A stretch of DNA of 64,000 nucleotides from Trebouxia sp. TZW2008 (lineage: Eukaryota; Chlorophyta; Trebouxiophyceae; Trebouxiales; Trebouxiaceae): NCBI GenBank assembly GCA_002118135.1, contig BDIU01000136.1, positions 558,001 to 622,000 on the forward strand. Direction: 5' to 3'. The notes beneath the pieces were generated by a model. The model saw nothing but the letters and a program-made list of their open reading frames with translations, was not told the DNA's origin and did not search any database. Made by a program: the position numbers and the translations under genes. Numbering within the stretch: position 1 is the stretch's first letter; each line of letters begins with the position of its first letter. This document shows, piece after piece, positions 1-60,300 of this stretch.

Positions 1-3000
1 GCCACAGATTGTGCAGCGTCTGGAGGGCGGCCTTGTTGCAGCAGTCCAGTCTGGGGAGGAGGCTGCCACCCTGCATGCCCGCCGCCTCACCACAGCCCTG
101 CAGGCATGTGTACTACCTTGCCCTCAAGCACACTTTGCAATACCTTGCGCTGAACAGGCTGTTGATGCAGCCATATTTGAGTGCAGTCAGCAGTAATGCA
201 ATACCCCAACAGTCTGTTCCTTGTTGATTGCTTTTTGCTGCAATGACAGCCATTATGTTGCCGTCCAGTAGAAGTGGTGAACATGTGTGGCGTAGACATG
301 CTCTTGTCAGGCTGGCTTCATTTTCGCGTCATGGTATGGACACAGAAGATATCCAGATAACAGAAATCAGCTGACCCTGGCCTGCATGTGACCCTGCAGG
401 CCTGCTCTCCCCAGCAGCTTGCAAAGCTCCTGATGCAAAGCCCAGGAGCCTTGAATTGGGCTGCGACCGTCTGCCGCTGCTTTGCCTTTGAGCGAAGCGC
501 AGCTGCTATCCTGCTGTACAACACCTCACAGGCAGGGCCTCATGCAGCCTTTGGCACCCCTACTCCCTCAGCCCCAATTTCATCACCAGCAGCTTCCAGT
601 GCATCTCCTCAAGCAGACTTGCACCAGCAGCAGCAGCAGCCTTGTACCAAGCGCTCAACAGAAGACGCTCAACACCGAGAGCATGATGCACCAGGCAGTG
701 ACGCGACAGCTGACAATGCCACTGGTTCAAGGGATACAGCAGCTGACAATGCCATTCTGATGCAAACAGCCTCAAGGCAGCCTTCAGCAGCTATCTCATC
801 CAATGATACAGCCCACACTAGCATTTCTCCACAAAAAACTTCAGACAACAGACCCAGTCCTACTGCCATGAAAGCGCCTGAACAGAGGGCAATGCAAGGG
901 CCTGAACAGAGGACATCTGCACAAGCAGCAGTCAGGGATCAGTCTAGCAGCCCTGATGTAGCTGCAGTGCTGCTGCCAAGGATGCAGCTTGGGCTGAAGC
1001 ATATTACTGGAGCAAGCACATACACTGCAGTTGCTGGTGTGGCTCGCCGACTGGCTGTTTCAGCACAAGCAGCAGACCATGTTGAAGCCACCTTTGCAGG
1101 TATGCGATTGTATCACCAGTGTCTTGTCTCATCAGCTTGCATCATCAAACACTGCATACGCAATGTCTGACCTATACAAGCGCATGCGTCAATGTGAACC
1201 TAGTCAAACAGCAAGCTCTGGGGTTACATGGCAGCCGTGTCCACACAATGTTGGATCACACTGCAGAGCATGTCTGTATCATCATGCGTCTGATCAAGAG
1301 CAGCCCATAAGGCAGCGAGCTTGCTCAAAAGTGGCTATTCCATGCTGCACTTTGAACATGCAGCTGTTGACCCCATGCTGTATATATGTACATGCAACTG
1401 GTCATGCTGCATATATGCATATGCAGGCGGTGTGGCCCTGCATGGCATTGCACAGGATCTGCTGCAAGCGTTTGAGGCAGAAGTCCCCCATCACCTGGCT
1501 CAGCACCAAGGCCGCAGAAATCAACTCCCCATAACACGCACACAACCCCAGGCAAAGGTGGGCTGGCAAGGCAGAGCGGCAGCCTCAGTTGTCGCCCTGA
1601 CTGAGATCTTATATGGCGCCTCACCAGCATGGCAAGCTGCACATGCCCAATCCCTCATCAGGACTGCTACTGGAAGCAGCGAACCTAGCACTGGTCACAG
1701 CACGTCTGCTGCACATGACCTTTCCCCCACTCCTGCTACCAAACATAATGAAACCAATGCCAGTCACAGCACTCATGCTGCTAATGGAAGCAGTCCTGCT
1801 AGCCACGACAGCATCAGTGACAGCAGCCCCGGCTGTAGTGTTGGTAGCCATACCAGCAGTCATGCTTCTCTTGAAGGTCAGCTTGTGTCTCATAGCCATG
1901 ATGGCCACAATCCCCTGACTGAAACAGATGATGCTGGACAGCAGCAGCGCGCATGTCATTTTGAGCACCAGATCGCCTCTGCTGATTCTGGTGGGCACAG
2001 TCCCCTGGGTAAATCAGATGCTGCTGAACAGCGGCAGCGTTCAGGCGACGTCAAACTTCAGATGGTAGAGTTGGAGCGCTTGGTGGAACAAGCTGTGGAC
2101 AGCTTTGGCAACAGCGGGGTTTGGCAAGTGCCCACTCATGCTGACCCAGATGCTGCACAGGATGGCCTCACTCCACAGGTATGTTGGTGTAGTCTTGCTG
2201 CACGTCATTTGGCCTTTCTATATTCAATGCCATCTTGAGATACTGCTGGCACTCTGATCATGTGTGCCAGTGCTCTCACTCTGCAGGTATGTCGGTGTGA
2301 TTGTGCTGAATTCTTTCTGTCTGGAAAGAGCCCAAGACGACTTGCAGACTTGACCTTTATGCACTCAGGCGCTTTCATCTGGTGTTAACTTGAGATATCA
2401 AATTTTGCAGCTTGTTGATCTGAGTGGTCTGTTGGGCCTGGTTTCAGACAGGTGCCTGATATGAACAGCAATGTCATCAGCACTGCCTCATATATTATGC
2501 AGGTTTTGAGTGAAATAACAATCTTGATCAGGGCATTGCTGGAGGCCATAGGCACCTGTGCCAGGGTATTGGGCCCCCACTTTGCCAGCAATGGTCTCAT
2601 ACTGCATAAGGTGCTGATTCCGGGATGTCTGTCAACGTGACACCTATCTTATATGCACGCAGGTTTTGGGTGAGAATGCAATCTTGATCAGAGCATTGCT
2701 GGAGGCCATAGGCACCTATGCCAGGGTGTTGGGCCCGCACTTTGCCAGCAATGGTCTCATACTGCGTAAGGTGCTGCTGTTACTGCTGGAGAGGCTAGCT
2801 GACCCCTGTCCCTCTGTGGCTACCAGTGCTGGTGCTGCCCTAGGGTCTGTGTGCCTACATTGCGGTTATGGGTCCAGACAAGACCTGCTGACTGCCAATG
2901 CTGACTACCTTGTAGACGGGCTGTGCCGCCAGCTGCGCCTGCTAGAACTGCATCCCAGGTGCGCCTTGTTCATGAAGACCTATGATTACTGAAAGCTGTT

Positions 3001-6000
3001 GTATTGCCCATATGCCATCATCAAATAACATTCAAGCACATTTGCTTTTTACCATCAGCACATAGCTTCAGGATAAGGTCAATGCGCAGCAATAAGTGAC
3101 AAGCTTGCAGGACTCAAAGCTTCAGCAGCCATCTTGCTCAAGCTTGAAAAAGCAGCAACAGCTGCTCACCCTGCTGGCTCCGTATTTCAGGCAGCAGTTG
3201 CATGAAACCCCTTGACCCTGCTACGTGGGTGCAAGGCTCCTTATCTGCTTGTAGCAGTCCTGCAGCAAACAGGGGCAGGCCCTCGGCTGCCGCCCTCTTG
3301 CCCAGACAGCAGATACTTGTCCCTTGACATAGACTTGACACTGGTTTCCATTTGCAGGGCTCCTTACCTATTTGCAGCAGTCCTGCAGCAGACAGGGGCT
3401 GGCCCTCAGTTACTACCCTTGTTGGCTGACCCAGCCAGGGCAGCATTCCAGGGGCTCTCCATCACAGCTCGCCACAACAGAGCCTTCCACATCTACCCAT
3501 TCCTTCAGGCAAGACGAACAACTGAATCTGAAGCTCATGCCCCTTACCCTGCTCTTGGCTTTGCATGTGGAGTGCTAGTGTCATCGTGCAAAGGTGCGAA
3601 GGGCTATGTGGACAATCTGTTGTTCATGCTGCATTTTCTGGCTACATGCCAACAGTCATGCTGCATCACATCAAATTGATATATCAATTGCTATCGCCCA
3701 GTGTCACAGTGCAACTTACATTGGCCTGGCATTGCTGTCAGCATTGCTGAGGAAAGTTAACATGTTGTGGCTACTCCCAAAATCAGGGCTTTGCAAAGCC
3801 TGTGGGTTGAGTACTCTGAGGATTTGGGGATGTTCTGCCGAGAACTCTGGGCACGGTCATGCCAAATCTGCATCAATTGAATTGTTCGCTGATCGTGCAG
3901 GTCCTGATGCACATTGTGGCCATCTGTGAAGCAGAGGCTGCTGCTCTCTACACTGCCACACAAGCTGCAGCTGAAGAGGTAAAGCAGGCACTTGCAGCAG
4001 TGCGGTCCAACCCCGACGCGGATGATGGTGAAGAGCCAAACGGTGAAGAAGGCCTTTCACGCATTGATGCTGTCAGAGCCTATTTTGTACAGCATCACAG
4101 ACAGAAAGCCCAGTCTGCTGCTGCAGAAGCAGAAACTAGCACAGAATTTGATCCAGGTGAGCTAAGTGCTGATGTCACCAGATTCCTGCACAATGCTTGC
4201 TGATACTTCCACTTCCTCTTGCTGCTGTGACCAAATTCCTCCGCTTTGCTTGCTAATAACTCTGCTAAGTCTTGCCACACCATTTCAAACTCTTGCTGAC
4301 CCTTTTGTAAAGTCTTTGTTTGCTGTGACTGGCTGCCTTTCTTGACAGGGCAAGTTGTGTTGTTAGAGGGCTCTGAGATTGTCATACAGTGCTTGCACTG
4401 TATGCTTCCAGCCTGTCTGTGGTTTATAAGGATGTCTTCCTGCAAAGCCTTGACCAACTGGCTGCACCTGCCATTTGCAGAGCCTGCTGCAATAAAGATG
4501 CCCTGCAGATTGTGAATCGAGGCAAAGCTTAGCCAATTACAAGTCACATTTCACTAGTCTTGGGACTGAACTCTGTGGGTGTTAGGTATCTGTCTTTGGC
4601 CCTACGTATGTAACGTACACCTTCTGGATGCAGGGGAGAGCGCAATGGAAGAGTGGAGTGACAGGCGGCGGCGTGTCCATTCTGTAGCTGTGCTGGCCCA
4701 TGCCAGTGCTGATGTCAGCAACCCACTGCTGCTATCCGCCACTCTCAAGGTCAGGCACTGCCTACCTTGCGTACCAACAACACAGCGCAGCAGATGTGAA
4801 AATGTCTGCTCAGGACTCAGACTAGCGTACCATCTTTGTCATGATGTGCAAATGTTGTTGCCTTGCTGTGATGGACAGCACAAGAGATGCAAATAGAAGT
4901 GCTAAATGCCTATGCAACCCATGCCTGAATGCAAATCAGGGCTGAAAACATACAAACCATTGCGCAGTGCCATTCTGGTGTACATCACAGCTGGCACTTC
5001 ATCTCAAAGAGCTGCTGCTGCTTCAGGTGGCACTGCTAGCCTCAAGGGTAGGGCTGACAGCACTGAAGGCTTTGCACGGCACCACAGCAGCCCTGAAGCT
5101 ATATGAGAATGTATTGACGCCCATCAGCAGCAAACAGGAGGGGGTGGGCCCCCCTGCCCCTGATACCCCTCAGATGCTGCCCAGCGTGCATGCCATGTGG
5201 GGCCCCCTGATGGGCGCTTTGAAAGTGCGTATTTCCAGGCAGTACTTCAGAAAGCGCAGAAGTCAATAGCCGGCCAATCAATCCCCAATTGATTTGATGC
5301 TGTACACGACACACGCATACCATGCTGCTGTACAGCTGTGCAGCATCATTCACAAGGATGGTGGGGCTGTGAATGTTGTGTCTGCTATGCCAAGATGAGG
5401 ACATGTGAACTGTGCTGCTGCATTGCTGCATGACTGTCGGCGCAAGGGAATGCCTCAAGTTCAAGCATACTTGAGCATGCTGACTGAAGCTGATCAATAC
5501 GATATGTTGAGAAGCTGCCCTCCCTGATCTAAGCATAAGCCTGACAATCCTGCAGCTGTGATATGCAGTCAAGCATCGCTCATGCCTCTCTGCGCAGCAA
5601 ACGCAGCCTTGACAGTTGCAATCATCGCTCTGTTCCCAATAGCATAGTGCGTGTCAAGCGCTAAGCCGTAAGCTCACTGCAGGATGGCAGGCCTGTCCTG
5701 TTGGCAGCAGCCCTTGAGAGCCTTGCTGATGTGTGTGGACTGGCAGGACGGCAGTCCATGGTCCCCCGTTGTACAATGCATGTCTGTTGCTGAGTCTGGT
5801 CCCCATTGCAGGACAGCAGACCTGCCTTAGTGGCAGCAGCCTTGGAGTGCCTTGCTGGTGTGTGTGGGCTGGCAGGAGGGCAATTCATGATGCGCCGCCT
5901 GCAGACTGAGGCCTGGCCTGTCATGTGCCACTTGATGAAGCATGGCGTGCATGAACCCCATGGGCCGCCTTACCATGCTGGTAGGGCTGCTGCACTTATA

Positions 6001-7348
6001 GCCTCTTTCGCACAGGCTGTGTGGTTTATGATGCGCCGCCTGCATACTGGGGGCATGTACTGTGCCTATGGCCTGTACCTAATGAACTCCATGCGATGCC
6101 CTACCATGCTGGTACAGCTGCTGTACCAATCAATCCTGTTGCAAAGGCTTTTGCTTATGATGCGCAGCCTGCAGATTGAGGACCTGTACTGTGCCTATGG
6201 CCTGTACCTAGTGAAGCATGGTATGCATGAACATCAGGGGCTGCCCTATCATGCTGGTAAAGCTGCGACCTCATGAATCATGCTGCAGAAGCTGTAACGA
6301 GCATGTCTGACTGTGTCTGATTGCAGTGTCAACCATGTCACAGCAACCATGTCAGGTGCTCTGCAGCTGTTTCACAGGCTAGGCTGTCAGTGGCCAAGCA
6401 GTCACTTGCTTGCTGCAGCGCCTTCTGCCCTGTTCATGTGCTACAGCATGTCATGCAGCAGCATCTGCATGGATGTTGCAGCAGTGTTGTGTGCTGCAGT
6501 GCGCAGACGCTTCGCACTTGTATCACTTAACGCTGTTTGCGTCCAGTCAACACAGGCCAGTTCCTTGCCTGGTGACAACATGACAATATTCCAGCTGTTG
6601 ACTTCTGTTTGCTGTAGCAGGGCGCCAGATGGTGATGGCTCCAGCGGGATTACAGCACATGCGCTTCTATGTCCTACGCTGCATCAGTCAGCTGTCTGAC
6701 ATTGCGCAGCCTCCCACTGTTTGGAAGGGCATGACTGACAAGGTGGCAGAGGCTGCTGCTGTCTACCTGGAAATCAATCAGACTTCTGCTGTGAAGGAGG
6801 CCAGCGTACAGGTCAGCCTGCCCTGTCCAATGCGCTGCTCTCCCCAACTTGCCAGTTGTAAAGTGTAAGTATGGTCATGAGAAAAAGATTGTTGTCTACC
6901 TGGAAAGCAATCAGACTTCTGCTGTGAAGGAGGCCAGTGTGCAGGTCTGCCTGCACTGTCAGATAGGCTGCTCTCCCCAACTTGCCACTGCATTTGCGGT
7001 GATGTGAGGAGGAAGACATCAGTCCTTGTCAAAATCAGCAAGTTGCATGCCTTGCTGACGACTTGTCACCTGATGCACAAGCATTTGCCTGACGTATTTG
7101 CTTGACTGGTGCAGGCAATCCTTGCCATTGCAAGACTGGATCCAGACGCTGTCTGGCTGCTGCTGTACCTGCGCTCAGATCAGAACATGCAAAATCCTGA
7201 TCCAACCCGTTTCCCAGACGCTCAGAGACTATGCAGCCAGACTCAGTCAAAGCAGCTCAGATCTACTACTGACACAAACTTGATTAGAAAACTAATGAAT
7301 CAGGTGGAGCAGATGCAAGCAAGCTGGCATTCCTTATGTGATGATTGA
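1..7348 (+). CDS. TTI1: TTI1 (TELO2-interacting protein 1) HEAT-repeat protein, 5' partial
   Basis: TTI1 is a HEAT/ARM-repeat partner of TELO2 and TTI2. The TTT complex stabilises PI3K-related kinases such as TOR, ATM and ATR. Likely exons: 1-105, 400-1099, 1427-2178, about 2411-2440, 2663-2958, 3358-3508, 3901-4156, 4634-4749, 5027-5224, 5812-5980, 6621-6811 and 7115-7348. The recognisable blocks are the motif GYGSRQDLLTANADYLVDG (2870-2920), which matches the conserved TTI1 'CGYxSxxxLxxxNxDYLVD' region, the block LPSVHAMWGPLMGALK (5178-5224), and the C-terminus DPDAVWLLLYL. Exons 2 and 3 encode long Ser/Ala/Gln/His-rich linkers not seen in animal TTI1. Phases agree at all junctions except between 2440 and 2663, where I could not resolve the donor. 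The first intron and the intron after 3508 fit only GC donors. Tandem copies of exon ends fill several introns. The N-terminus lies off the left edge. Confidence 0.88.
2503..2773 (+). repeat. Tandem duplicate of a TTI1 exon start (copies at 2503 and 2663)
   Basis: About 110 bases beginning with the acceptor-proximal AGGTTTTG are present twice, 160 bases apart, at roughly 90 percent identity. Both copies are open in the same frame (ILIRALLEAIGT). Copy 1 can be read as a 108-base phase-0 exon, 2503-2610, ending at AAG|GTGCTG. Copy 2 continues into the conserved TTI1 exon. Copy 1 may be a duplicated cassette exon or a young relic. Confidence 0.85.
3230..3440 (+). repeat. Tandem duplicate of a TTI1 exon start (copies at 3230 and 3358)
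   Basis: The start of the exon encoding APYLFAAVLQQTGAGP (3358 onward) has a close upstream copy at 3230-3310, offset 128 bases, encoding APYLLVAVLQQTGAGP. After about 75 bases the upstream copy diverges. The downstream copy continues into the conserved LPLLADPARAAF segment, so the upstream one is the likely relic. Confidence 0.85.
5687..6270 (+). repeat. Four tandem copies of a TTI1 exon with its donor
   Basis: Segments beginning near 5687, 5811, 6000 and 6130 are related. The ATGATGCGC core sits at 5887, 6028 and 6158, and the upstream half (VAAALECLAGVCGLAGGQ) is shared between 5700 and 5825. Copies 2, 3 and 4 each end in CATGCTG|GTA, so the splice donor was duplicated with the exon. Copy 2 (5812-5980) is the best match to the TTI1 family and keeps phase with the next exon. 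Confidence 0.85.
6757..6990 (+). repeat. Tandem duplicate of a TTI1 exon end plus donor
   Basis: The end of exon 6621-6811, its donor, and about 45 bases of intron are repeated 133 bases downstream (6894 onward). Both copies encode NQTSAVKEASVQ followed by GT and a shared intronic block ending in CTCTCCCCAACTTGCCA. The copy lies wholly within the last intron of TTI1. Confidence 0.9.
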
Positions 7349-17600: not shown

Positions 17601-18972
17601 ATGGCAAGCTTTCTTGGCAAAGCCTCAAAGAGTTCATTGCTTGGGTTTCGCGCTCAGCACTTAGCTCTCAGGGTCGCGGATGCTGGATCACGGCAGAAGC
17701 CGCAGCGGCCTTGGACTATCAGGTGCATGGCAGACACAGGTACACTGAGGAATACAACGCAAGCAAAGTCCTGTTGCAAAGGTGTTGTCACTGTCTGAAG
17801 CAAGATCCTCCTTGTGCAGCTCGCCCTTCCACCAAGTTTGAAGTGGTGCAAAGTAAACCAGCATCAGAATGCTCAGTCGGGCGCCTAGACGTCATTTTGG
17901 GTCCAATGTTTGCTGGGAAAAGCAGCGAACTTCTAAGGCGTGTACAGGCATTTGAGGTGAAGCCTGGCTTTGTCAGCATTACAGTCACTGTTATAATGAG
18001 CTCAGCAGTGCTATTCCTGTCATTTGCTGCAATTGGTACCAAGAAAGTTGTCCTTATACCAAATTGTCTGTACTTTGAGTTACCACTGCAGTCAGAATGC
18101 AGTGGTTGCTTCCCGGTTGCCTTGTCTGCAGATTCAGAATATCCTCACATTGAGCGTCTGTGTAAAGCGTCTGTGTAAAGAGTCCTGTACAGGTCATAAA
18201 GATGAGCTTCCTATGCAGGCTGCTCACAAGCAAGTTTTGCTTGTCAAGTCAGATCGAGACACACGATACTCCAAAAGCGAGATCACGACGCATGATGGCC
18301 TGGCAAGGTCCTGTCACGCAGTTGGCTTGCTAGCTGAGCTGCGAGCTGTTCGGCAGTACGGCAGTGCGCACGTCATTGCCATTGACGAAGCCCAATTCTT
18401 CCCTGACCTGTTGGAATTCTGTACTGAAGCATCTGACAATGAAAACAAGCAAATCCTGGTTGCTGGTTTGGATGGCGACTTCAAAAGGCAGCGATTTGGC
18501 CAGGTCAGATTGTTGCTGCTGTGGACAATGCTATGAGCTCTTCAGAAGACAGTATTTTCTGTTGATAACGACTGCGTTCTTCACCAAGACAGTCAACTTT
18601 ATACCAAGTTTTCCTGACTCAGATGTATCATTGCAGTCAGCATGCAGTGATGCTGTGCCATGCATGGTCCCAAATTGCCTTGTCCTTACATTGAGAATCT
18701 CCTTATATCCAGTGTCTGCACAAGGAGAAATTACTGCATTCACTGGCTGCTGTTGACACATTGTGCCTATGCTTGTGCAGGTACTAGATTTGATACCAGT
18801 GTCAGACAGCATCACCAAGCTCAAAGCAGACTGTGCATACTGTGGTCAGCCTGCCTTGTTCTCTCTGCGGATAGCAGCAGATCAGCGACAAGAAGTTGTT
18901 GGCGGAGCAGACAAATATGCACCTGTGTGCAGACATCACTATGTGTCATTGTCACAGCTGCGTGGGCAGTGA
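17601..18972 (+). CDS. TK1: Thymidine kinase (TK1 type II family) with organelle-targeting-like N-terminus
   Basis: Thymidine kinase phosphorylates thymidine for dTTP salvage. Exons 17601-17739, 17820-17956, 18219-18503 and 18781-18972 are phase-consistent and give 250 residues. Key elements are the P-loop GPMFAGKSSELLRR, the DTRYSKSEITTHD segment, the Walker B-like IDEAQFFPDLLEF, the ALDGTF-type AGLDGDFKRQRFG, the lasso VGGADKY, and zinc-binding pairs CAYC and CRHH. The first 45 residues are Ser/Arg/Ala-rich with no acidic residues near the start, as in plastid or mitochondrial transit peptides of plant TK1 enzymes. Introns 2 and 3 each carry a copy of a dispersed repeat. The last 41 coding bases, including the stop, are duplicated immediately downstream. 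Confidence 0.96.
18037..18175 (+). repeat. Dispersed intronic repeat, copy A (TK intron 2)
   Basis: It shares with three other sites a core of CTGCAGTCAGAATGCAGTG, a short hairpin, followed by a TTGCCTTGTC block and a second block resembling AGAATATCCTNACATTGAG. About 130 bases are alignable. No coding potential was seen. Confidence 0.75.
18565..18735 (+). repeat. Dispersed intronic repeat, copy B (TK intron 3)
   Basis: Begins GATAACGACTGC, includes TTGCAGTCAGCATGCAGTG and TTGCCTTGTCCTTACATTG, and ends near CACAAGGAGAAA. Same orientation as copies A, C and D on the plus strand. Confidence 0.78.
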
Positions 18973-28257: not shown

Positions 28258-29045
28258 TCTGCCTGTATGCTTTTGTGGCAATTGTGTGTGATTGTATATT
28301 GGCTGGTTTTTGTGGCATGTCAGTGGCATAGTCAAGGTGGCAGTGTGTTGTGTTTTGTTTAGAGCAGGTGATTTTGTGTAGGCACAAATTGTTCTGGGTT
28401 TGAAGCAGCTTAGCGTGCAGTTGACTATTCTCAGCACGGTCATTCAGGCGAATGAGATGACTTTTGAAGGAAGAGACTTTTACAAGAAGTCGTTAAACAC
28501 TTCGATTGCAATCTGTGCTTGCTCATGATTCCAACACCACATTTAATGGAACAATGACGCATCGCTCAGTCGTCATCTGTCCACTCACCAACACTGGCTA
28601 CGATGAACGAAGACAAACAAGACTGAATAAACTGAAGCCATCAGCACAGCTAACTCGAAGTACATCTGATCACAACATGCACGTGAGATATCACGCAAGA
28701 GCAGCTGAGTCCACAACATAAAATTGCAAGCCACATCTCAGTGTGCAGTGAGCCAGCTCTACAAAACTGGACAATTTCTTGCAAACTATCTGCTGAACTG
28801 GATGCACAACATCAATGACATTCCGCATGTCATGTGATACTCATGCAGCCACACATGCCTGCAATTCTTTACTATTCACTCAGCACTCAACTACAAAATT
28901 GGACACCTGACAATAACAAAATCTTGAAGGTCTGCAGACCTACATTGCCGCAGGCTTCATTTGTTGCCCTTTTCTTGCTGGCATTTGTGTCTTCAATGAA
29001 TACGCCACTCTACTGAATGTGACAGCATTTTCCTTTGTCTTTGGC
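28258..29045. other. Tail-to-tail intergenic region, MAK16 / lipocalin-like
   Basis: About 790 bases, AT-richer than average, with no supportable exon. Likely 3' UTRs of the two convergent genes. Confidence 0.45.
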
Positions 29046-45362: not shown

Positions 45363-48300
45363 TCAAGTGGACTCTTTGTCTGAAAGACTCAATTGCTGTA
45401 GCTGCTGCTGCCGCCAGCTTGCAAACTCTGTAATGTGAGACTGCTTCCCTGCCTTGAGCGCCGTCTTATTTGCAGCTCTGGCTTGCTTCCACTCCTGCAA
45501 CACGTTTGTACCCACAATTCACTTCCTGAAGAAGTGTTCTGCAGTGAGAATTGGCGTGATCAAGACCAGTACCAGCATGCTGCAGGCATTCGACGTAAAA
45601 GATAATTGCTGCAGACGACTGCAAGCATGGCAAGAGGCATGTGCAAGCGAGAGCAATATCCACTATCACGACATGTTCACCCTAGGCTTGATGCTCATAC
45701 AGGTTGCAAAAGGTGGTGAAGCTGATGATGCTCTCAACTGAGTCATATTTGAGTTCCATCATGGCACTCACCTCAACATCAACAGCTGGCGAGTCAGTCT
45801 CCTGAACAATGGCATCAGCAGGTGTGTTAGCAGCCCCAGGCGACTGAAGAGCCTTGATACGCACAAATCGGTCTGGGTGCAGCTCAAGTGGCTGTTCCTT
45901 CTTGCCTTTGGGTACAGGCTTGACTACAAGCGGCTGTGTCTGCTGCTGAGCTGCGGTAGCTGCAGCAGCAACCCGCGCCTTGTGGGCTTCTAAGGCTGCA
46001 TTGACCTGCTTGGGCCGGTCCTTCTGACCTTCTGTCCACTTTGCAAAAGCGGCCTGTAGTCACACAGCCAGTCAAATGCGAAGCACTGGGAATAGTCTAT
46101 GAACAAAATTCGGCGTCAAAACGACTTCTTGCAGCTTTGGAGGGGTCAAAAGCGCACTCATAGACCAGTGAAACTTTCTGGGTCTGCTTCATCCATCAAT
46201 TGTGCCAAAGGCTGTGACCCACATTCAGCAAGCAAGCAAGCATGCATGCAAGCAGCAAGCAAGCATCACGCAACCGCGTGGACAAGACGCTGCTCATCAC
46301 ACGCAGCTTGAGTTGATGTTGCCACATTGTTGCAAGGGGTACAGTCCTGCAGTCCCACTGCAACAATTTGCCTGCTTACAACAGGGCATACAACAAAGCT
46401 GTGACCTTACAACCCCATCCCAGGATGCATGAGCAGATGCTTTACCGACTGTCCCAACGAAGCACAACGGCGCCATCTGCCAGCAGAAATGAGCAGCATA
46501 TGCCTGTTATCGCTAATGAACATCAGTGCTTGGTCTACAGCAATGACACAAGGTAACACTACGCTTTGTACGCAAACTCTACCTTCAGAGGCTACAGCTG
46601 AGAATCGATGCGGCAGCCGCAGAATCAAGTGTAGTCACTATCCTTTGAGCAAAGTTCTGAGATTGTGCCGTCTTTGCATCAGCTGAGGTGTGAGGTGTGT
46701 CACAGATGCTGTCTTGCGCAAAGTAACCATCGAGTCTCAGATTTTACCTGAGAGTACTTCTGCTTGGAGTCATCAGGCACCACAGGGCACGCCTTTGCTT
46801 CTGCTGTTGGGAGCAGTATCAGCTTCCAGGTGACTTCCCAAGGCAGGCTGAAGTGTTGACCTATCTCAAAGCGACACCTGGCAGGGTCCAGAGCCAGCTG
46901 CAGCAAGTATTTGCCCGGCTGCAGCCATTGTCCAGCCACAGTCACCTGAGCATCCCCAAACCACTGGCCCAAGCTCTGCGAAACCGACAACAAGACAAAT
47001 AATGTTACATATTGTCAGCAAACAGTGTAGCTGATTGCGTGTGGCTCATCATGGCAATGACGAAATGCCTATCATTTCCAGGCCATGCACAATGTAGCAT
47101 ACCAACCTCAGAATATCATGCTTTGCAAAGAGAGAGAGTGCATATTGCACACACTGTCAGTCAGCCAATGTGTGACTTGCAAGGGGTGTCACCACAATTC
47201 ACAATGGTCCAGCTTCTTGGTGTATGAGGTTTATTTGGACAGTTGGGACAGCTGATGCAATAGCTTGCCATGTCTGATTGGTTCTGGAAGTGTTGGTTCT
47301 GGAAGTGTTGTTTCTGATGAGGAGCTGTGGAGCAGCTTGCCTGAAACATGCCTGGACGTGCTTGAATGCACTTTGCATTGGCGTTTATGCCAGGCGTATG
47401 CTGGCATGCTGTCTAGGCCTGCACTGCTTGGTATGTGACTTTTACAAAACTTCACATGCCAGCAACTAAAGGAACAGTCAATCTTTTCATCCAAAATGGA
47501 ACAGTGAGAGAATCAGTGAATTACTTGAACAGCGCTTTGCTGTGCGCTTGCATCTGCCACACGGAGGATAGTCATCTGACATGCCATGTCAGCATTGCCC
47601 CTGCATACAATAGATTGTGTGTCAAGCCCACAAGATGCGATTGCTTTGACCTGCACATCACTTGATACCCATCTAACCTGCACATAATGTCCAAAACATG
47701 TACTTTAGCGGCAATAAGCAAGTTTTCATCAAGTGTGCCCTGCGCCACTGGGAGCAGTGCATGCAGTCAGTATCCTGTTGACAATCAGCAAATGCAGGTC
47801 AAGTGTGCCTTGTGCAACTGTGAGCAACATGCGCAGAAAGCACTGGAACGTGCACCCAGGTTTCCAGATGATCCCCTGACATTGTGCTGATGGAGTGTGT
47901 TGTTGCAGAGCCTGAGAACTTCCAAGGAGTCTGTGACCAATGCAAGGAGCTAGCGACAGCTGTGAGGAGCTAGCATCAACTGAGTCAGAGGTAAAACCCC
48001 TCAGACCCTTGTGACTGCAGAGAGACAGGGTTTACCTGTTGGCCACTTCAGCATGCAGGGTCAGCAGGGTGCGCTGACTTGGACTGATGACATACCTAGC
48101 CAGCACCAGGTGCTGGTTGGGCTCATACTTGCCTGCACCAGCCACCATACCTCAGTGAGCTTGACACAGTTCATTTAAATCTTGGCGCACTGCATGCGTT
48201 GGCGTTGCATCACACCAGATCTCAGCGCACAGGGCGTTCAGGATTCCTAGTCTGCTTGGTAACTGTTATACAAGTTTGTTGTGGGGAGATGGAATGTCAT

Positions 48301-51300
48301 TATGACTGAGGCCACCTAGGGGGACGTAGGTATAACGTACTGATGGGTTGCAGCATGGCACTCCCCCCCATATGTCACTGTTTAGTCTGCAGGACTCAAG
48401 AACATAGGTAGGCAAATCTCAGCATCAGCATGCATGATCACTGGCAGGATCACAGCAACAGAATAGAATTGGCAGCATCATGTATGTGTGTGTGTGTGTG
48501 CTGTTACCTTCAAATATGTCTTGCCGAGTGCCAGGAAGCTGAGTCCAGGCCTGCAGGGGCTGCTGTGAAAGCACACTGAGGCGCCAGCTGTCCTGAGGCA
48601 TTTCCTTGGGGCACCAGGACATGGCCATTACGGTGTAGCCCTCTTTGTTTGGGGCCAGCAGCAGTGGCTGTGTGCGGTGCACCAGGAAACTTGTTTCCTA
48701 CAAGCAGCAAGAACAGCTTGTCAGGACTTGAGACAGCTGGCTGTGTCTGCCTGCACTTCAGGTGCTCATAGCTGCAGGCCTATTGGCCGAGGAGGAAGAG
48801 GGGGGGGGGAGCGCGCACGGGTTCAGACCTGTTGCAGATCAACTGGCTTTGTTTGCTTGCAGCGTAGACCTTCTCAGCTGCAGTTCTTCAAGAGGAGGTT
48901 GCAGCTATTGTGCGCGCACTAGTTGGCATGTTGGCTCAAGTTGTGTCGGCTCGATCGAGAGTTGCATCAGCCCTTTGAGGTGTCATTGTCCAACAGCAGC
49001 AGCAACAACCACAGCAACAACAATGGGAGGTTGCATCAGACCTTTGAGGTGTCATTGTCCAGCAGCAGCAGGGAGGCAGCCTGAGGCAAGATTTCACCCG
49101 GCAGGGCCAAATCCAGGGCCACAAGGCAGGCCTGGGGCAGGTTGAAAGTGTAGCGGAACCAGAGGGCCCAGGCTGCTGCAGGGAATGGCCCAATCCGCCC
49201 CTCACTTCGCTGCACTGCCACTCCCTCCTTCTCCTGCAGCACCTGCAGCCACCATATGGGTCGGCGCATAATACCCACATCAGTGCAAGTTTCCACACAA
49301 GCATCATATACATCAGCACACAATGCTCACATCAACAAAAGCAAACACGATATGAGTGCAAAAACGCATCTCCACCTGACCCTCTGGCCGTAACAGTGGA
49401 CGACCTCTGTTGCTTGTGTGTGCGCTGCACTGCCGTTCAAGACTTTGCATGTTATGTTATCTGTATGACAGCTCCACCAACAAGACTGGAACTGACCTCC
49501 TTTGCACTTCAGACAGTTAGGTTAACTGGCACACAACAACAAGCTCTTTAAGTAGGCATTCTCCAGCGTGAGACAATTCTGGTTGTTGCACCACAGCACC
49601 ATCTTACCTTGCTTGCATCCTCCACCTGGAAGGGAACATTGGCTCTCAGGTCCATAGCATGCAAAGCATGGGGTTTAGTCATGATCATGAGGGGTTACAG
49701 GCCACCTGGCAAACTCGGCGTGAACATCATCCAGCAATATTCAAATTTGACTGTTTTGCATAGGCATTATCCTACCTTGTTTGTGTCCTCCACCTGGAAG
49801 GGAACATTGGCTCGCAGGTCCAGGGCATGCAGGGCATGAGGGTTAGTAATTAGGCGTGCCAGGTGGCGCCCAGCTGGCAGGCTGAGGCGGGCTGCTGCAG
49901 CTGTGGGGGTGTGCAGCTGCAGCAAAGGGCCCTCTGCCCTCCCAGCTGGGGCAGTTCTGCTCCATGCATATGGCTCCGTAACCAGCTGGAACTCTGACCG
50001 CTGCCTGTGTTTGTCAAACCATGTAAGTGTTTTACTGGAACCAGGACTCAGTGTGTTGTCAGATTGAGGTGGGGCTTTGACAGGGGTGGGGGGCAGGTGT
50101 GCAACTGCAGCAAAGGGCCCTCTGCCCTCCCTGCTGGGGCAGTTCTGCTCCATGCATATGGGTCCACAACCAGCTGGAACTCTGACCGCTGCCTGTGATG
50201 TCAACTCACACATGGTCAAGTCAGTTGTCTGGAAAGCACCTAAGCGGGTTGGCCTTGTCTTTCAGAAAAGAAAGCTACAGATGATGGTGGCTGCTGTCAA
50301 GAATGACTGCAACAGAGGGCCCTCTGCCCTTCCAGTTGGGGCAGTTGTGCTCCATTTGTATGACTCCACAACCAGCTGGAACTCTGACCGCTACCTGTGG
50401 TGCCAAACCACGCATGTTAAAGCGATTTATTGTCTTGGTGTATTGCAGCAAATGGCGGTGTGCATAAAGTCAGTGTCAGCGCAATTGAAGCACATTGTGA
50501 GCTTTCAAAGGCATCAGGGGGAAACTGTGGGGTGGCAAAGCTGCAGCAAAGGGCCCTCTGCCCTTCCAGTGAGGCCAGTTCTGCTCCATGCCTACCCAGC
50601 TGGAAGCTCTGACTACTGCCTGTGTCTGCAACAGGTTTTTTGTGCCACTGCATGCGTTTTCCACTGGCATGTGATTGACCAGGCTTTTGGTAAATCTTTC
50701 AATTCTTTAACAGACCAAAGTTGTAATGCATATATATGTGGTTGCCCTTTCACCTAGACATCAAAGGCAGCTTGCTGTGGTGCATACCTGGATGAGGTAG
50801 CAGCAGCAGGCAGGGAAGCTGAGGGGCCCCCTGAGAGGGACACCAACAGCTGCACAGGCTCCTTGCACTCCAGGAACAGGGCAGGGCTGTGAGCCAACAG
50901 CCTCAGGTCTGGCCTCTTCACCTGCTGGCTGTGGCTGTACATGCTTGGGTCCTGCAAAGCATTTGGGCAACTTGCAGCAAGAGCTTTGTCGAATCTGCCA
51001 CTGTAAATGTGTTGACCTTGCAGAACTATATTTGCACACAGCAAAGCTTGGTTGGAGACAGTTGATTGCTTCTGTACGTACCTAGTTGGGCCTGCTGAGC
51101 CTGCCTAGCCCACGTTTGTAATGAGTATAATGAAAGCTTGCAAGTGATACATGCACATGTTGCTTGTTGGTAACTTCAACTTGTCCCACATTGAGACTTT
51201 TCTTACTTTGCTTTTGTATTGGGTTCTGATGTTCCTGAAGCTGTGCAGGGAAGCATAGGCAAGATGACTCTTTGACAGCCAGGGAGAGCAGACCTGAGCA

Positions 51301-54300
51301 AGAGTGATGGATTGGGAGGAGGTGGCCAGGTCATGCAGGTCCACCCAGGTATGAGGGCCATTGCCCTGCGCCACTTTGGCAATTTGCTTGCCCCTCCATT
51401 TGGCCACACTCAACACCTGCAAGTATCATAACAACCATGAAACAGGCTCACAAGCTTGCATGTATCCTACCAATACAAGGTTTTGCTTTTCTGTTGGTGA
51501 AAGGGCTTGAGCAGGAATATGCTATGCAGGCCACATATCAATAGACCGGGAAGATTGCAGCAGAAGTGCATGGTTGATTTGATCACCTGGCAATCGTGAT
51601 ATATGAGGGAGAAACAGGGCACAAGGCTGATGCTCTGACTGAATTGACCTTGCGCCAGGTCAGCTGCTGTTATAGCTGCTGTCCAGCGTCAACGATTGAT
51701 GCAAACAGTGCTATTGTGCGCCTCAATGGTGTGCAGAACTGTGAGTTGATGCGGGCACCTGGCAGTGATGAGAGATGAGGGAGGAGCAGGGCACAAGGCT
51801 GATATCCTGACTGAGTTGACCTTGCGCCAGGACAGCCCCTGTGATAGCTGCTGTGACTTGCGCCATGTCTCCAACTGCAGAGACCTGGCTGGAAGACTCT
51901 GCATACTTCTTGCTCAAAGACCTGAACGTAAAGCAGACACAGCTCAGCCTTGCCCATATGCTGCCAATGCATCATGGTGTCATGAGCCTTCTTATCACTT
52001 ACACGCTGCGCATGTTCACAGGCTAGCTCAGAAACGTAAGAGCAAGAGGGAGAGAGAGATTATTACAAGTTTTGGCCAGCCTATTTAGGCTGATCACTTG
52101 TGCTGAGGTCACTGCAACCCCAGCATGTACCCTCAAAATTGTAGCACTGAGACCAAGGCACATGTTGTGTGTCCTGCTGCTATGCACATTGTGCATGCCC
52201 ATCCAGGTCACTGTTTGCAATGCCCACATGCAATAGGACATGTTTTCTGTGGCAGCTTTTAGGGACACAGGCTCTCTCTACAACATCTAACAGTGTAAAG
52301 TCTTCATTTCCTTGTGCAAGATGGCACAGCAGGCTGCGCTTGCAGACCTTGTACACATCAAGCATATTTGCAAAATCAAAGTTGACTTCAACAGTTGATC
52401 TGCATGCATTACAGCGTCTACATGTGTCATCTGCTGACCTGGCATGCTTGGCCCAGACAGTGAGCCTGCGATGCACATTGGGGGCCGAGTCATCTCCACG
52501 AGGTGTCAAGCGTGCTGCTGCCTCTGTGTCTGGAGAGCCATCAAGCTGCACTGGGGCAATGGTGGCTGATAGTGCCCCAGGGCCTGAGGGCATGTGGTAG
52601 TTACGGTGCGTCACAGGGTCAATGCGGCGGAATTTGGCACGGTCTGTAAGGATTGGCTCAGGCGCATCTAAGATGATGACGTGATCTGGCACGTGGCCAG
52701 CAGCTTGCAGAGTAGTTGCCTGCATGCCAGCTTGATGTCATCAAGAAATCAAAACAGCTGCTGCACGTGCTGATAGTGCGCTATAAAAAGTGTTGCATGT
52801 AAACGTCTCTGGGAGAGGTGCTGAGCGCCTACAGCAGACTAAGTTCGTTCAGAGAGGCAGGCAACAGCATCAAAATGCTTTGTCAAAGCTTGCACTGAAG
52901 CAGAGCGCGCGACTCAAGCAGCAGTATACAACCGAGCCCTTTTCCCTTGCCGCCATCAGCTGCCTGACTTGATGCAACAAGCATAATTGTTGATAACCAT
53001 GTGCAGTCAATACTCCTGCTTGAAAAGCATAATGCAACGAGTGTGCAAAAAGTGGAGTGTCACTTGCCTGAGCAGCTGTATGGGGAAAGCCGTCGAGCAG
53101 CCAGCCTGCCTCCACACAGTCTTGCTGCTGCAACCTGAGGCTGACAACTTCCAGGTAGATGCTGTCGGGGATCAGACCATCCCCAGCAAGATAATCCTGC
53201 AGAAGGGCATCCCCAGCTGCTGCCCTGGCTTGCAGCAGGGGCCCTACTTGGATGTGGGGCATTCCTAGGGAGGCTGACAGGGCCTGGCAGTGGCTTGTCT
53301 TGCCACTCAGTGGAGGTCCCAGCACTACCACCCTGAAAGATCACATTCACAATAGTCACAATGTCAAGAACCTGTACAAGTTGACTGACAACAACAATAA
53401 GGATGATGTGAACAAAAACAAAGACAAATTGTAACAAGAACAACAGCAATAGCTACAGCAATGGTGGTCATCACAGTAAGTCTCAGGAGAGCTGCATGCT
53501 TACTTGAAGCGCTTTTGGCCGTACTGGGTGTGGGGGGGAAGGGGGGGAGGGGCGGGGAGGTCTCAGGAGGGGCGTCCATGACCCCACACCTAGGTCATGA
53601 CGCATGTGCACTGTTCTTCACTCACAACTGGCTTGTCCAAAACAACCTACCACAAAATGCATGCAGGCAGGCTACAGCTCTACTAGAAGGGCTTTTGGCT
53701 ATACCGGCAGCAGAGCTTCATACTTCCTTGCATTGTACTTTTCAGGAGAACTGCATGCTTACTTGAAGGGTTTTTGGCCATATTGGCGGGAGGGCAGGTC
53801 CCAGGAGGGGCGACCATGACCCCACACCTGGGCCATGGGTAGGGCCTTGGGGTAGCGCAAGCTGACCTGCTCCAGCAGCCTGTAAAGGGATTGGCGCAAG
53901 GCAGCAGGGCCTGTTGCTCCTATGGCCACTGTCACATCTAACAGACCAGGGCTTTCCAGTGCTGCCACTTCTGCCTCTGCAGCCTGTCATCAACAACAAA
54001 TACAGCTTTTCACGTCTAGTACATTCGGACTTGATGCATGGCAGAAGAGCCTGGTGTTCCCGATGCTCAATGCGTCCAGCAGACCATGACTTTGCAGAGC
54101 TGTCGCCTCTGCTTTTGAGGCCTGTTGTCAAGAAAACATGCAGTTTGTCAGCAACAACACATGTAGCCTGCTATTGACATCTCAAGCAGCTCTTTGTATC
54201 TATAGTGTTGGGCCAGGTGCAAGGCAGCAGGACCTGTCGCTCCTATTGCTGCTGTCACATCCTGAAGGGCTGGGTTTTGTAGAGCTGCGACTTCTGCCTC

Positions 54301-57300
54301 TGCAGCCTGCCATCAGGAAAACGTGCTTTTCTTGATTTGTCTGATAGCGTCAGCCATGGCACAAGGCACAGGGGCCGGTTGTTGCTCAGCCCGCAAATGT
54401 CACAAAGAGTCAAGAACTAATGCAGTACACAGACCAGACAATAGCAAACATTGCACTTGCTATACTGCAGCAGCATCACACCTGCAGCAGCTGCTGAGCA
54501 GCTTCCTCTGGCTCATAGCCAGGCAGAGGCCTTTTCTGGAGGGCTGCAGCAATGTTGTCCAGCATGCCCTGGCTGCTCTCAGGGGTTAGCCCCACATAGC
54601 ACGCTTCAAAGCCCTGATCCCTGAGGACTTGCACGTCAGCAGCGTGGTCCACATCAAGCACGCACACCTGCATACCATTCTCAACGTCTGTGTGACTCGT
54701 GTAACACCAAGGTCAACAAAGCTGATACCAGTGATATTCAAGCTGCATAGTGGACTTAAAGAGACAACGTTATGTCAAAGCATGGAAACAGGCAACATAC
54801 AAGGAAGAGACAAAGATACTGATCAGCCCAACAGTATTTGCATTCATGACATAATTAGACAGCAGCTGCAGTATATCAAAGCCCCTTCTTGCTCAGTACT
54901 GCTGCAGTGACTGCTGGAAGTGCACTGTGCTTAGGACAAACCCACCTTGTCCTGATACTGCACAGCCTGGACAGCTGCCTTGGTGACACCATACAAATGA
55001 CCACATGCCATCTCAGACAACAGCAGCTGCCCTTGCTGCTGCAGCACTTCTGCTTCCTCCTGGCTGATCACCTGCACATCACTGGAACTGCTTGCAGTGC
55101 AGTATTCCAGCAGCCGTCTTTTGCAGTGCTAATGTTTGCCAGAGGGATGCTACACAATGCACTGTGATCAACTACAGGCATGACTGTTCCTGCTGCCTGA
55201 GCTCTGTCACTGAGACTGACAGCGCTGTGACCACTGCTTGATGTTGCGCAGTGCAGTGGATAAAAGTAGATAAAATAAATGCGCATGCAATGACAGCTTG
55301 CGCTTGGGTCTCAAGAAATGCATGGTAGCAGGAGTTTGTGAGACTGCTCATGCATGATACTGCACTTGCTTCACAGACTCAGCTGCATTCCAGGCCACGT
55401 GCTGAGCAAGCATAGCTAGTCAAGAGTCAGTCTGCTGCAGACTGACCTTGAAGGAGGGGTTGGGGTTTGCACCCTCCGCCCTAGGCTTAGTGGTGAACAT
55501 CTCAGGAGCAGCAAACCTGCTGCCATACTCCTTGAACAGCTGTTGCACCAACTCTCCTTTACGGCAGGCTGCGCCGAAGGGCCCTGCCAGGACCACGGGC
55601 AGGCTGACAGGGGCAATGACTGCAGGGCTGTGCTTGGAAATGGCCTGCTTGAGGGTCATGTACATGTTGTCTATTGGGCCTTCTGGTATGACGGCTGCAA
55701 AGGAGCTTGCTGCTTCCTGCAGAGGCAGCCAGTCGAAGGTGGTGCATTGGTTGATTGCTGCTGAGGAGCAAGAATGCACTCTGTATACATAGGAGCAAGC
55801 TGTTATAAGTGCTGTTTATCGGGGCTTCTGGTATGGTAGCTGCAAATCAGCTGGCTGCGTCCTGCAGAGGCAGCAAGTCAAAGGTGTTGCGGTGACTGAT
55901 TGCTTTTCAGAAGCGAAATGGTGCTCTGTATACGTAGGAGCAAGCTGTTACCAGTGCTGTTTATCGGGCCTTCTGGTATGCTGGCTGCAAAGGAGCTTGC
56001 TGCTTCCTGCAAGATGTGGGCACGTCAAGACTTTGCATTGACTGACTGCAGCTCAGTGGCGCGCTCAGCATGCCGATAAGCGAGGTATGGCTCAAGCTGT
56101 CAACAGAAAGGGGTGGTACTGTGGCTGTGGCTATACAGACACCAATTGTCAACAGTGACTTCAAACCAAACCTCTACAGCACTTCCAGCAATCTCCAACA
56201 GTAACACTGGCTCAGGCTGGCGCATCAAGTTCATGATGATGAGTACCAATACGGAAGTGAGTGCACTGGGCATGGCCAAGATCAAGCAATACGCTGAGCT
56301 GGTGTTTTGGTCGGTAGTCGGATGCCATTGTGGTCATCAAGTGAGCTTTGAACGTAGCAGAGTCAGGAATCAATCAGGCTTCTTTGTCTCCCTCAATCAA
56401 CAAAATTTTGATTTGATTCAATTTTTTTTATCAATCAAAGAGAAAACCCAAACGGATGTTGACATGCTCACAACATGCAGCTCATGCGTTGACACAGCAG
56501 CAGCACTGGACGCCAAAGGTGCTTGACCATGACATGCAGAAGCTGTTCCACCCAAAAAGGCAGCAATGGAAAGCAAGATAGATTAAGCCTTACATTGGCC
56601 TTTTCAGCTTCTGCAGTGGCTGCCTGAATGGCCTGCTGCACTTGCGGCTCCTTATTCGTTGGGGGCAGGGCTGTTCTCACTGCCTGCGCCAGCCCTGCCC
56701 CTGGGGGCAGAAGCACTTTCAGGGCATTGGGCACTTTCACTGCCAGCGTCCTCTTGACATCCAGGGGCAGTAGGCACATCTTGCCCTCAGCTGCCACCTG
56801 CGATCAGCCTCATGGGTCATTGCAAAAGTCTGTCTCTGCAACTGAGCCAAAAGTGCCATTGAGCACAATAGCAGCCTGCTTTGCACTTCAGAGCGCATAT
56901 GGGTACACTATAAAGAGACATGGCATCAGCTTTTCATGCTGCATTTTGTGCACTTGTGGGGTTGTTCAAGAACATGTACCAAGCAAACAAGATTATATGA
57001 AAAGAAGGCCACACACACATCTAACAAAGGTCATCTCGCTTGCACACAGTGCTCATGTCGGTGTTCTCTGAGGACAGGCGAGTGCTTCATCAACACTGCA
57101 CACAAAAGTTTGCCTGCAGGCTTGCACTTGTTGTAGCAAGGAGGCAGTAGCGCCAGTGAGGGCTGTCCCAGGGCCCTCTGCAACCTCCACCACCTGCCCG
57201 CTGGCGACCATCTTGCATGAGACAACTCGAGCAAGCAAGGCCTCGAGGAACAGAACATCGGGCATTGTATCCAGATGCCTTCTTCTTTGCAGACACTCCC

Positions 57301-60300
57301 TTGCATGCAGGGATGCACCTGCTGCAGAGGCATTGCATGCAAGGGCGGCATAGAGTCATTGCATGCAGCCCAATTAGCCTGAAAATTTCTATCATTGCAC
57401 AAATATGTAGATGCACAAAGTAACGAACGAGTGGATGGAACACTGGACTGAACAGTGAATTGCACCTGTTGTAGTGTTGAGGCAGCAGTGCCAGTAAGGG
57501 AGCCACCAGGTGCTTCTGCCACTTCCACCAGCTGTCCGCTGTCTGCCATCTTCTGCATGACCTCCTTCTTGACAAAGAAGAAGTGCACGCCCTCCACCTC
57601 GCCCTTCTCAGGCTTCTTGCTAGTATGCCTGCTCAGCACAAATGCTTTAGCCGAGGCTCAGAGGTAGTGTTGAAGGCAAGCCTTGAAGGTAGAGCTTTAG
57701 CTGAGCCTTAACTCTAGTGGGCACACGCTACCTAAGTGGCTCCAATGTTTGACCTTCTCAATCCCGCTGACTATTTGTGTACTGAGGTGCAATCATCCTT
57801 GGATAATGCCACAACACTTTTGGAAAGGCCAAATCCGTGCATTTCTGTGTCACGCCAGCAAACAGCTCAGACGGCTGAGCAGGCAACTCTCATACATCAG
57901 CTGATGACGCCTCTCCATTTCTCAGGCGTGTAACAGGCAGCATGCAGTATAGTCCGCAGGGTAAGGCGGACTACACTAACCTGACGGCAGTCCCAAACTT
58001 GGTGGGGTACTCTTGCATGAGCTTAACCATGAGGGTGTCCCTGGCTGTGACTGCCACGCTGCAAAGCACTAGGGACATGCAACGCGAGGCGCTGGTCATG
58101 TGTGACTACACAAACCTGATAGCGGTCCCAAACTTGGTGGGATACTCCTGCATGAGCTTGGCAATGAGGGTGTCCCTAGCTGTGCCTGCCACGCTGCAGA
58201 TGACTAAGGGAGCCTGTGGCTGAGCTGATGCAGCTGCATTGCCCTCATCTGGCTCGGCATTGGCAGCCATCAAGTCTGGCCTGTGTCTGCATACCACCAG
58301 CAAGCTGAGCTCATGCGTAAGCGCCACAGTATGAAGTGACCATTCTTGTAGCCCTGCCTTGCCATTAAACAGAGTAAAGCAGGCAGGTCAGATCAAATAT
58401 GTGCTTGTGAGTAGGATGGCAGGTCAAGCAACTGAACAAGCTGTCAAGTGTGAAGTGACGCAAGAGCTGCTGTGTAATTTTAAGATGCTGCAATGCTAAA
58501 GCGATGCTGAAATGCAATGCTGCGATGCAACTATTAGATGCAGTCTCGGCAATCTTACCTTGAAAAAATTTGGGTGAGCTCATCACAGGTTTGCTCCACG
58601 CTCTCGAAGACCTGCAGATGCATGCTGAAATCACGAATTCGTCATGAAGGCAGCAATAGAGCACATTTGACAAATACAACATGGGGTCATAAACAATGGA
58701 GTCACTCCATTGGTGCATTGACGAGGCAAAGTCTAAGTGCAGCAGCCAGCAAGCTATCTTTCTTGTGGCATGCTCAGGCTGTCAGGCAGCAGTCAAGCAG
58801 TGACAGGATATTGCCTGCCAAGCCGTAATGCATGCAGACCAACCTGTGACTGAACAGACCCACGTTTTGGGCAAATTGCCAGTCAGCTTTTGATGCTGCA
58901 ATGCACCTGCCAAGACATGTCTGATTCATACCAGCTTGTGATCAAACACATCCCCTGCTTGGGCAAAGTGCCAGTCAGCTTGCGCTGCTGCAATCTGAGC
59001 CTCCACAAAGTGTGCAGGCTGCCTTAACTGCTCCCTGGTCTCTGCTTCATAGTCCTGACAGCAAACACCATAGACATACTCAAGAGTCAGCATTCAGGCT
59101 GATCCTTATGCACCATTTGCATTGAGTGAAGACAGCATGCAAGCCGCTTGCACAACACCATTGACATGAGATGTAGCTATTGTCTATTGCAGAAAAGTGC
59201 GTGTCATGCACCAACAGATGGCAAGATGCTGCAAGCTGTGCCTGTAGATGTGTGGAGTCCAGGCGATACATAGGTCAGGCCAGATCTTGCAAAAGCAAAC
59301 ATGCAAAGCTACAAATCAAAACGTCACAAGCCAGGCAGCAGTAACAGCAATGATCACAGAAAGTGTAGCTTGAGGCAAAGAGCACAGCTGGCTCTGCATG
59401 CCTGTTATCGTCCACTCAATCTAATGTATGCCCATGAGCACAGCATGCTGTTCTGAGTGCACCTGTGGGGTGTTTGGGGCCAGGAAAACAGTCAGGCAGT
59501 CCAACCCTTTGGCTTTAGCAGCCTCTGCGCCTTGCACATCAGTCAGTATCAAAGGAATCCTGCCCTGTGCCGCTACTGCTGCTATGCTTGCTTGGGTAAC
59601 TCCATAGCGCCGCCTGGCCAGCTCATGCCTGATAGGGTCACAGTGGTGCTCTGCAAGCTCTCCCTGCTGCTCAAGGTGCTGCAGCAAAGGAGCGCAGATT
59701 GTTGGCGACAATGTGCTCAAGATCTGCTCTGCTGATCTTCATCCACTCCCCATGTAAGGGCAGTTCATTACAAGGGGGACCTTGTTTAGTACTGAGCATG
59801 CAATGGCATGTTTTATAGCCATGAGGCGTTGCAGACAAACCAGACAAGACAAGACAAGACAGGACAGGAAAGACCAGCGCAGGGCAGGACAGGACGAGAC
59901 AGGATGGGACAGAAAAAGACACAATTTGAGGTAGTCTGCTCACATTTGCAGCTGCATGGCTGAAGCTGCAATGCAGCAGCAACAAAGCAGCTGCTACATC
60001 ATTGCTTTGGCATCAGAACACTTGGCGATGCCATGCAGCAGAAGAGACAGCGGACACAACTTGACATGCACATACGATCATTTTCTTTGTAAGACACATC
60101 TACAAGCTCAAGGCTGGTTTGTGGTCTGCAATCACAGTGAGCAATGACCTGGCAATGAGCTGCTCGACCTTAGTTGAATTTGGTTCCTACAACATGTGCA
60201 GCATGCCTTGAACTGGATGCTGTGTTCAGTGAAGGCTGTGAGATGATGGGTGCAGGGAAAGATGGGTGGATTTGCTGCTGATGGGCTTGCAGTAACATGG

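Follow-up and report, generated by a model that had tools for sequence, protein, structure and literature searches.

Introns lengthened by decaying local copies of their own exon edges in a Trebouxia genome

Why do so many introns in one stretch of an algal genome contain copies of the exon edge beside them? The question is raised by a 64,000-nucleotide (nt) window of Trebouxia sp. TZW2008 (assembly GCA_002118135.1, contig BDIU01000136.1, positions 558,001 to 622,000). A reading of the letters alone, referred to here as the sequence-only reading, had noticed extra copies of the neighboring exon end or start, together with its splice signal, in introns of TTI1, an Arc1p-like gene, PUS10 and a FAP42-like gene. 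We followed up this observation in 304 kb of the same genome (68.5 Mb, 527 contigs), comprising the window and 240 kb more: 164 kb around and including the window on the same contig, and 100 kb and 40 kb from two other contigs. The results support the conclusion that exon–intron junctions were duplicated locally in this genome and that its introns grew longer as a result. Ordinary short tandem duplications, filtered by survival at splice junctions, probably account for the copies.

The central counts come from three genes, TTI1, FAP42 and midasin (the last lying outside the window), whose exons were taken from spliced alignment of Trebouxia orthologue proteins. A copy of the intron's own exon edge was found in 29 of the 87 introns (6/17 in TTI1, 10/31 in FAP42 and 13/39 in midasin), and the 30 edges copied in this way comprise 12 donors and 18 acceptors. 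The sequence-only reading had proposed an intron-by-intron alignment against shuffled pairs as a check, and it was run on these 87 introns: when exon edges were paired with shuffled introns of the three genes, none of 30 rounds of 174 comparisons each gave a match, nor did the reverse complements of the edges. Blast pairs recover the same 30 junctions, together with four wholly intronic clusters and one exonic cluster. TTI1 has six copied junctions, of which five lie in the window and the sixth is 1.3 kb upstream; FAP42 has ten. These 16 junctions, with six more repeat clusters that overlap or border unvalidated gene-finder exons in PUS10 and the Arc1p-like gene, agree with the earlier estimate of about twenty introns; the offsets read at that time as 160, 128, 133, 145, 134 and 172 correspond to measured values of 159, 129, 133, 145, 135 and 172. 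Enlargement of introns, also part of that reading, is seen in the duplicated units, which make up about 6,600 of 41,663 intron nt in the three genes, and in the median intron length of 533 nt with a copy versus 391 nt without.

The models behind these counts hold 18 exons for TTI1 (19 aligned, with one merge), 32 of 33 for FAP42 and 40 of 44 for midasin. One 6-nt FAP42 exon and four midasin exons shorter than 75 nt were left out. The best protein matches are to Trebouxia species, with identities of 57–61% for TTI1, 64% for FAP42 and 56% for midasin, and the identity of FAP42 was confirmed by the match of its orthologue P0001 to PDB chain 7n6g_6M. A stronger intron penalty was used in the spliced alignment; a weak penalty produced micro-exons. 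Two TTI1 exons were merged to 1427–2178, where the intervening stretch is open in frame and the gene finder also reads one exon, and a repeat at 1899 is therefore counted as exonic. Outside the three genes, exon labels come from a purpose-built, unvalidated gene finder in its stricter version, a looser version having split the sequence into many tiny exons. Codon bias was weak at the composition-based start of gene finding, the resulting models have the splice consensus CAG/GT for donors and TGCAG/G for acceptors, and several copies tend to be labeled as open coding exons.

How are the copies arranged? Self-alignment of the three pieces of DNA (E < 1e-4, one search space) revealed 187 direct pairs within 1 kb, grouped in 112 clusters, versus a single inverted pair. 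The repeats thus share one orientation and lie near each other, rather than being inverted or scattered, as the sequence-only reading had described the copies. Low-complexity pairs and offsets outside 20–1000 were excluded from the cluster counts. In the window alone, local direct repeats (offset < 1500) number 65 and local inverted repeats 7, and 5 of the latter are self-palindromes. Repeats cover 8.8–10.4% of the 304 kb at a density of about one cluster per 2.7 kb, and counts per 10 kb in 31 bins are near Poisson, with a mean of 3.61 and a variance of 4.18, so that the clusters are spread about evenly. Four short genes of the window, RER1, DRC8, MED11 and GDPD, had been singled out as lacking copies. 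No cluster lies between about 7.4 and 18 kb at the threshold used, which upholds the observation itself, but any contrast between short and long genes is weakened by the near-Poisson density, with a chance of 0.02 for the gap.

The smallest offset falls between 100 and 200 nt in 57 of the 112 clusters, and the mode of unit size is near 120–160 nt. In the offset distribution the lower flank is unsafe because short units are harder to detect, while the drop above about 220 nt is less affected. At 28 junctions of TTI1, FAP42 and midasin, the offset to the nearest copy ranges from 69 to 338, with a median of 157. The smallest offsets of the 75 junction clusters in the 304 kb leave remainders of 0, 1 and 2 modulo 3 in 29, 11 and 35 cases, a pattern that was noticed post hoc and is not clear in a hand count of the 28 junctions (10, 6 and 12).

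Several pairs abut exactly, among them an offset-148 pair in midasin and the copies with a 145-nt period in FAP42. In other pairs the intron half is filled by weak residual similarity only. Compared more than 15 nt from the splice site and against unrelated introns, this similarity has a mean z of 2.15 (standard error 0.44, 26 junctions), with 11 of 26 above 2. The idea that such pairs are non-tandem inserts with filler was rejected, since the weak similarity spans the gap in many of them. The exon share of the unit varies from 0.09 to 0.96 (median 0.49, 28 junctions), so the junction occupies no fixed place, and no shared motif was visible by eye at the 28 exonic break points, an inspection that also led us to reject a donor-like motif at the exonic ends. 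These properties fit plain tandem duplication with unconstrained ends.

We next consider the state of the copies. Across 37 intronic copies, mismatch to the exon is 0.151 at the first codon position, 0.138 at the second and 0.212 at the third, and the intron part shows 0.226. The copies evolve neutrally beside a constrained exon: in the intron part either side can change, which is nearly true of position 3 too, whereas at positions 1 and 2 changes fall on the copy side only. Their mismatch spectrum is ordinary and rich in transitions; hypermutation of the copies at birth was rejected for this reason. Of 30 copies, 25 retain an intact spare splice dinucleotide, compared with a neutral expectation of 0.73 (p 0.135), and on this count we also rejected selection against spare splice sites. 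Internal repeats were sought in 17 orthologue proteins and found in none, which supports the absence of the spare copies from the protein. From the same proteins we infer that the surplus copies are spliced out.

Divergence at codon positions 1 and 2 spans 0.047 to 0.333 across the 37 copies, in keeping with the earlier description of copies that differ in age, though none is very young. With evenly spread ages, the chance of finding no copy below 0.047 is about 0.001, so the process looks past or slowed and not running now. The sequence-only reading had called it active, a description that the copies do not support, the least diverged being already 4.7% from its exon at these positions.

Given these features, we propose that this nuclear genome once acquired short tandem duplications, commonly of 100–200 nt, throughout its sequence, and that they are decaying today. 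Within an exon, a duplication would damage the protein and usually be lost. One that crosses a splice site would be harmless as long as splicing used the copy still attached to the remainder of the exon; its twin would be removed with the intron, which would grow longer, and this surplus copy would then drift neutrally. Its conserved exon half would keep a junction pair recognizable longer than a wholly intronic pair. Because the real exon is conserved, junction-spanning copies would come to dominate the visible set.

To what extent does such a history predict the observed bias towards junctions? In the null model, tandem duplications fell at random, those in exons were discarded, and the rest decayed neutrally before being scored at the same detection threshold. 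By geometry alone, junction-spanning units would make up 47% (present introns) to 53% (copies removed) of junction plus intronic units. The simulated share was 0.51–0.60 and 0.58–0.63 for two genes, and 0.57–0.74 for three genes under five settings. Simulation was preferred to a scaling of intron-part scores as an estimate of how often wholly intronic duplications are detected (13/27 at threshold), an approach rejected because it overstates short chance matches. Most of the junction bias is thus expected from the null. By label, 75 of the 112 clusters are at junctions, 20 lie in introns, 7 in exons and 3 between genes, 6 pair an exon with an intron, and 1 is of another kind. When the exon map was shifted against the repeats 400 times, a mean of 52.5 and a maximum of 66 of 97 clusters fell at junctions, compared with 67 observed; this cruder control also indicates an excess, and at the same time restricts how much can be claimed for it. 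Clusters that contain a pair at least 85% alike number 17 at junctions, 2 in introns and 2 in intergenic DNA, and the two best-preserved alignments outside junctions are short, at 37 and 40 nt.

Several observations weigh against survival filtering as the whole account. In the three genes 30 of 34 clusters (0.88) span a junction, a share above every simulated value, with p from 8e-5 to 0.04 over the five three-gene settings and the weakest value under faster decay. In the 304 kb, 75 of 95 junction-or-intronic clusters exceed the expectation of four of the five settings (p <= 0.0125), the fifth giving 0.17 and the whole range being 5e-6 to 0.17. Exon sequence also takes a larger share of the aligned part of the pairs than in most simulation settings, and the intron half is more decayed than expected from a simple two-to-one rule, with insertions and deletions as the sole explanation offered. 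These number 6 in exon-derived parts versus 20 in intron parts of 22 pairs, the latter figure being dominated by long intron alignments. Moreover, a spare splice site that is still intact would be expected to compete with the real one. The stronger intron decay, the exon-heavy alignments and the scarcity of insertions and deletions in exon-derived parts could mean that introns decay faster than modeled, in which case the residual junction excess would vanish, or that copies derived from exons differ in how they arise or persist. The excess is real in direction but uncertain in size. The earlier suggestion of a process aimed at junctions is only partly supported, the null alone giving 51–74%.

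Could duplication instead have been aimed at exon edges or splice junctions, through chromatin, transcription or splicing-linked breaks, beyond what survival explains? Besides the surplus of junction-spanning clusters in the three genes, this idea draws on the scarcity of wholly intronic clusters, of which about 41.7 kb of intron holds only four, and on the ratio of 7 exonic to 20 intronic clusters in the 304 kb, even though most exonic duplications should be lost through the reading frame. Under faster decay, however, the excess falls to p 0.04, the units show neither a fixed junction place nor a visible motif at exonic break points, and the 304-kb set depends on the gene finder, with its tendency to call copies exons; we therefore regard targeting as unlikely. 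A more specific version is a past episode of nucleosome-sized tandem duplications that preferred exon edges, with junctions as the mutational target and introns growing by the copying of their borders. Such an episode would leave a junction excess over the null, a size mode near 120–160 nt and no copies less than about 5% diverged, and we hold it to be similarly doubtful. That the copies were kept for use, as alternative exons or as spare sites for robust splicing, might be suggested by the intact spare AG or GT in most of them, by the open coding exons that the gene finder reads in several, and by the few insertions and deletions in exon-derived parts. Against this, the copies are unprotected at codon positions 1 and 2, the number of intact sites is not above the neutral level, and not one of the 17 orthologue proteins carries such repeats, making a use for the copies very unlikely.

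The birth of new introns by tandem duplication of an AGGT-bearing exon segment involves the same kind of mutation, and the consensus of donors and acceptors described above suits it. This model, however, predicts an intron start that resembles the downstream exon and an intron end that resembles the upstream exon, whereas in the scored pairs the adjoining intron contains a copy of an exon edge together with the splice site belonging to that edge; we consider it highly improbable here. An assembly in 527 contigs invites the suspicion of artefact, to which we give the least credence of all: the copies are 5–30% divergent in a neutral, codon-aware pattern that misassembly could not produce, and there is no N within the 304 kb. 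The account that we prefer thus remains ordinary tandem duplication with survival filtering.

How do these copies relate to known systems? The sequence-only reading knew of no named system, yet a named model exists for intron change by tandem genomic duplication, and a junction case has been published in the potato RdRp gene, where one direct tandem duplication crosses an intron–exon boundary (PMC4974935). As in Trebouxia, an intron end and the next exon start were duplicated in tandem and the splice signals inherited; the potato gene, however, shows a single event that left both copies in use and created a new intron with a cryptic donor (PMC4974935). In the alga, the copies appear idle in the old intron, affect donors and acceptors alike and occur in a third of the modeled introns (29/87). 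In the Rogers model, an intron is gained when an exon segment with AGGT is duplicated in tandem (PMC4974935), and Drosophila cases are described (PMC2891723); there, tandem duplication likewise acts on exon sequence plus splice signals, but a new intron forms inside an exon, whereas in the alga an existing intron is lengthened.

As to origin, repair of breaks may have made the duplications. Small tandem duplications arise when breaks with 3′ overhangs are repaired by filling in the overhangs, involving CST and Pol alpha-primase (PMC8355091); like those of the alga, they are direct and lack a special motif, and the route has been proposed for natural human and plant insertions (PMC8355091). They are mostly shorter than 100 bp, however, while many in the alga measure 100–200 nt and are known from sequence alone. 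Introners (PMC9860276) resemble the present case in that many introns of one genome are altered by one process, but they form a dispersed family that inserts elsewhere, whereas the algal copies are local and each derives from its own exon; the shuffled comparisons in the three genes gave no sharing across unrelated introns of the Introner type. Tandem exon arrays with exclusive splicing, as in Dscam, also place repeated exon sequence beside an exon (PMC1397879). Those exons are functional, whereas in the algal copies positions 1 and 2 are unprotected, and the mismatches given above do not show coding constraint on both copies, as mutually exclusive exons would.

No description of genome-wide exon-edge copies in introns was found in the open-licence literature. 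A word search in passages of two Trebouxia genome papers found "tandem" in neither, and "intron" not at all in one (PMC11523091) and once in the other (PMC12712428). Decaying copies of splice junctions at such a scale seem to be new, tandem duplication itself being known; the algal copies would thus seem new by scale and outcome within a known kind of event. Here a single genome contains many natural duplications of splice sites that differ widely in age, a collection that may serve to study how the spliceosome chooses between a real and a near-identical spare site, how introns lengthen, and the size and placement of duplications before selection. The set also calls for caution in annotation, as gene finders can take decaying copies for extra exons, and the one used here did so.

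In the window, the 3′ part of TTI1 occupies 1–7330 on the forward strand, with its first exons up to 6.1 kb upstream (orthologue P0007 of Trebouxia C0004, 19 exons). Its acceptor junctions are copied, on the same strand, at 2488–2646 (from the exon 2663–2958, offset 159, 89% identical), 3211–3333 (junction at 3358, offset 123, 76%) and 5632–5760 (junction at 5812, offset 129). Copies of its donor junctions lie at 5991–6266 (junction at 5980, offsets of about 129 and 270) and 6890–6987 (junction at 6811, offset 133, 90%).

FAP42 extends over 45390–63978 on the reverse strand, with 32 of 33 exons and 64% identity to orthologue P0001 of Trebouxia C0004, and all its copies lie on that strand. Donor junctions are copied at 48961–49002 (junction at 49042, offset 69, 95%), 49557–49682 (49776, offset 168, 75%), 51573–51682 (51759, offset 172, 83%), 53476–53599 (53763, offsets 238–259), 57122–57214 (57466, offset 338, 75%), 57969–58074 (58116, offset 135, 86%) and 58814–58902 (58932, offset 92, 73%). 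Three acceptor junctions have more than one copy: that at 50004 has three at 50096–50594 (offsets 188, 390 and 624), that at 53983 has two at 54031–54383 (offsets 140 and 323), and that at 55716 has two at 55810–56061 (period 145).

The remaining junction rows rest on gene-finder exons. In PUS10 (PF21238, PF21237; forward strand), the stretch 33814–34063 holds an exon end with its donor, copied at offset 137 (81%). An array at 36670–37704 follows the last PUS10 exon found (36505–36789), with units of about 100–124 nt and a 370-nt period; the gene finder ends the gene at 36789, and the junction is only putative. The Arc1p-like gene, which has a tRNA-binding domain (PF01588) and lies on the reverse strand, contains, at 20900–21413, an array in which a 104-nt unit is repeated about 3.5 times, adjoining a gene-finder exon, and three clusters at predicted exon edges within 22125–23202 (22125/22229, 22390/22545 and 22701/23132). 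A long imperfect palindrome of about 380 nt, with a 77% match to its own reverse complement, is located at 22745–23123.

Repeats also lie within coding sequence, at 1899–2039 in TTI1 and 32445–33072 in PUS10, possibly as exonic duplications tolerated in low-complexity protein regions. In the protein-based (not RNA-based) models of TTI1, FAP42 and midasin, 8 of 87 introns start with GC, a high share for green plants. A dispersed repeat of about 80–130 nt, with copies 67–79% alike and unlike the local copies, occurs at 18028–18154, 18583–18743, 21560–21669 and 38005–38162. Finally, an inverted repeat of 77 nt (28544–28620 and 29342–29418), 90% alike and about 720 nt apart, possibly marks the ends of a small mobile element.

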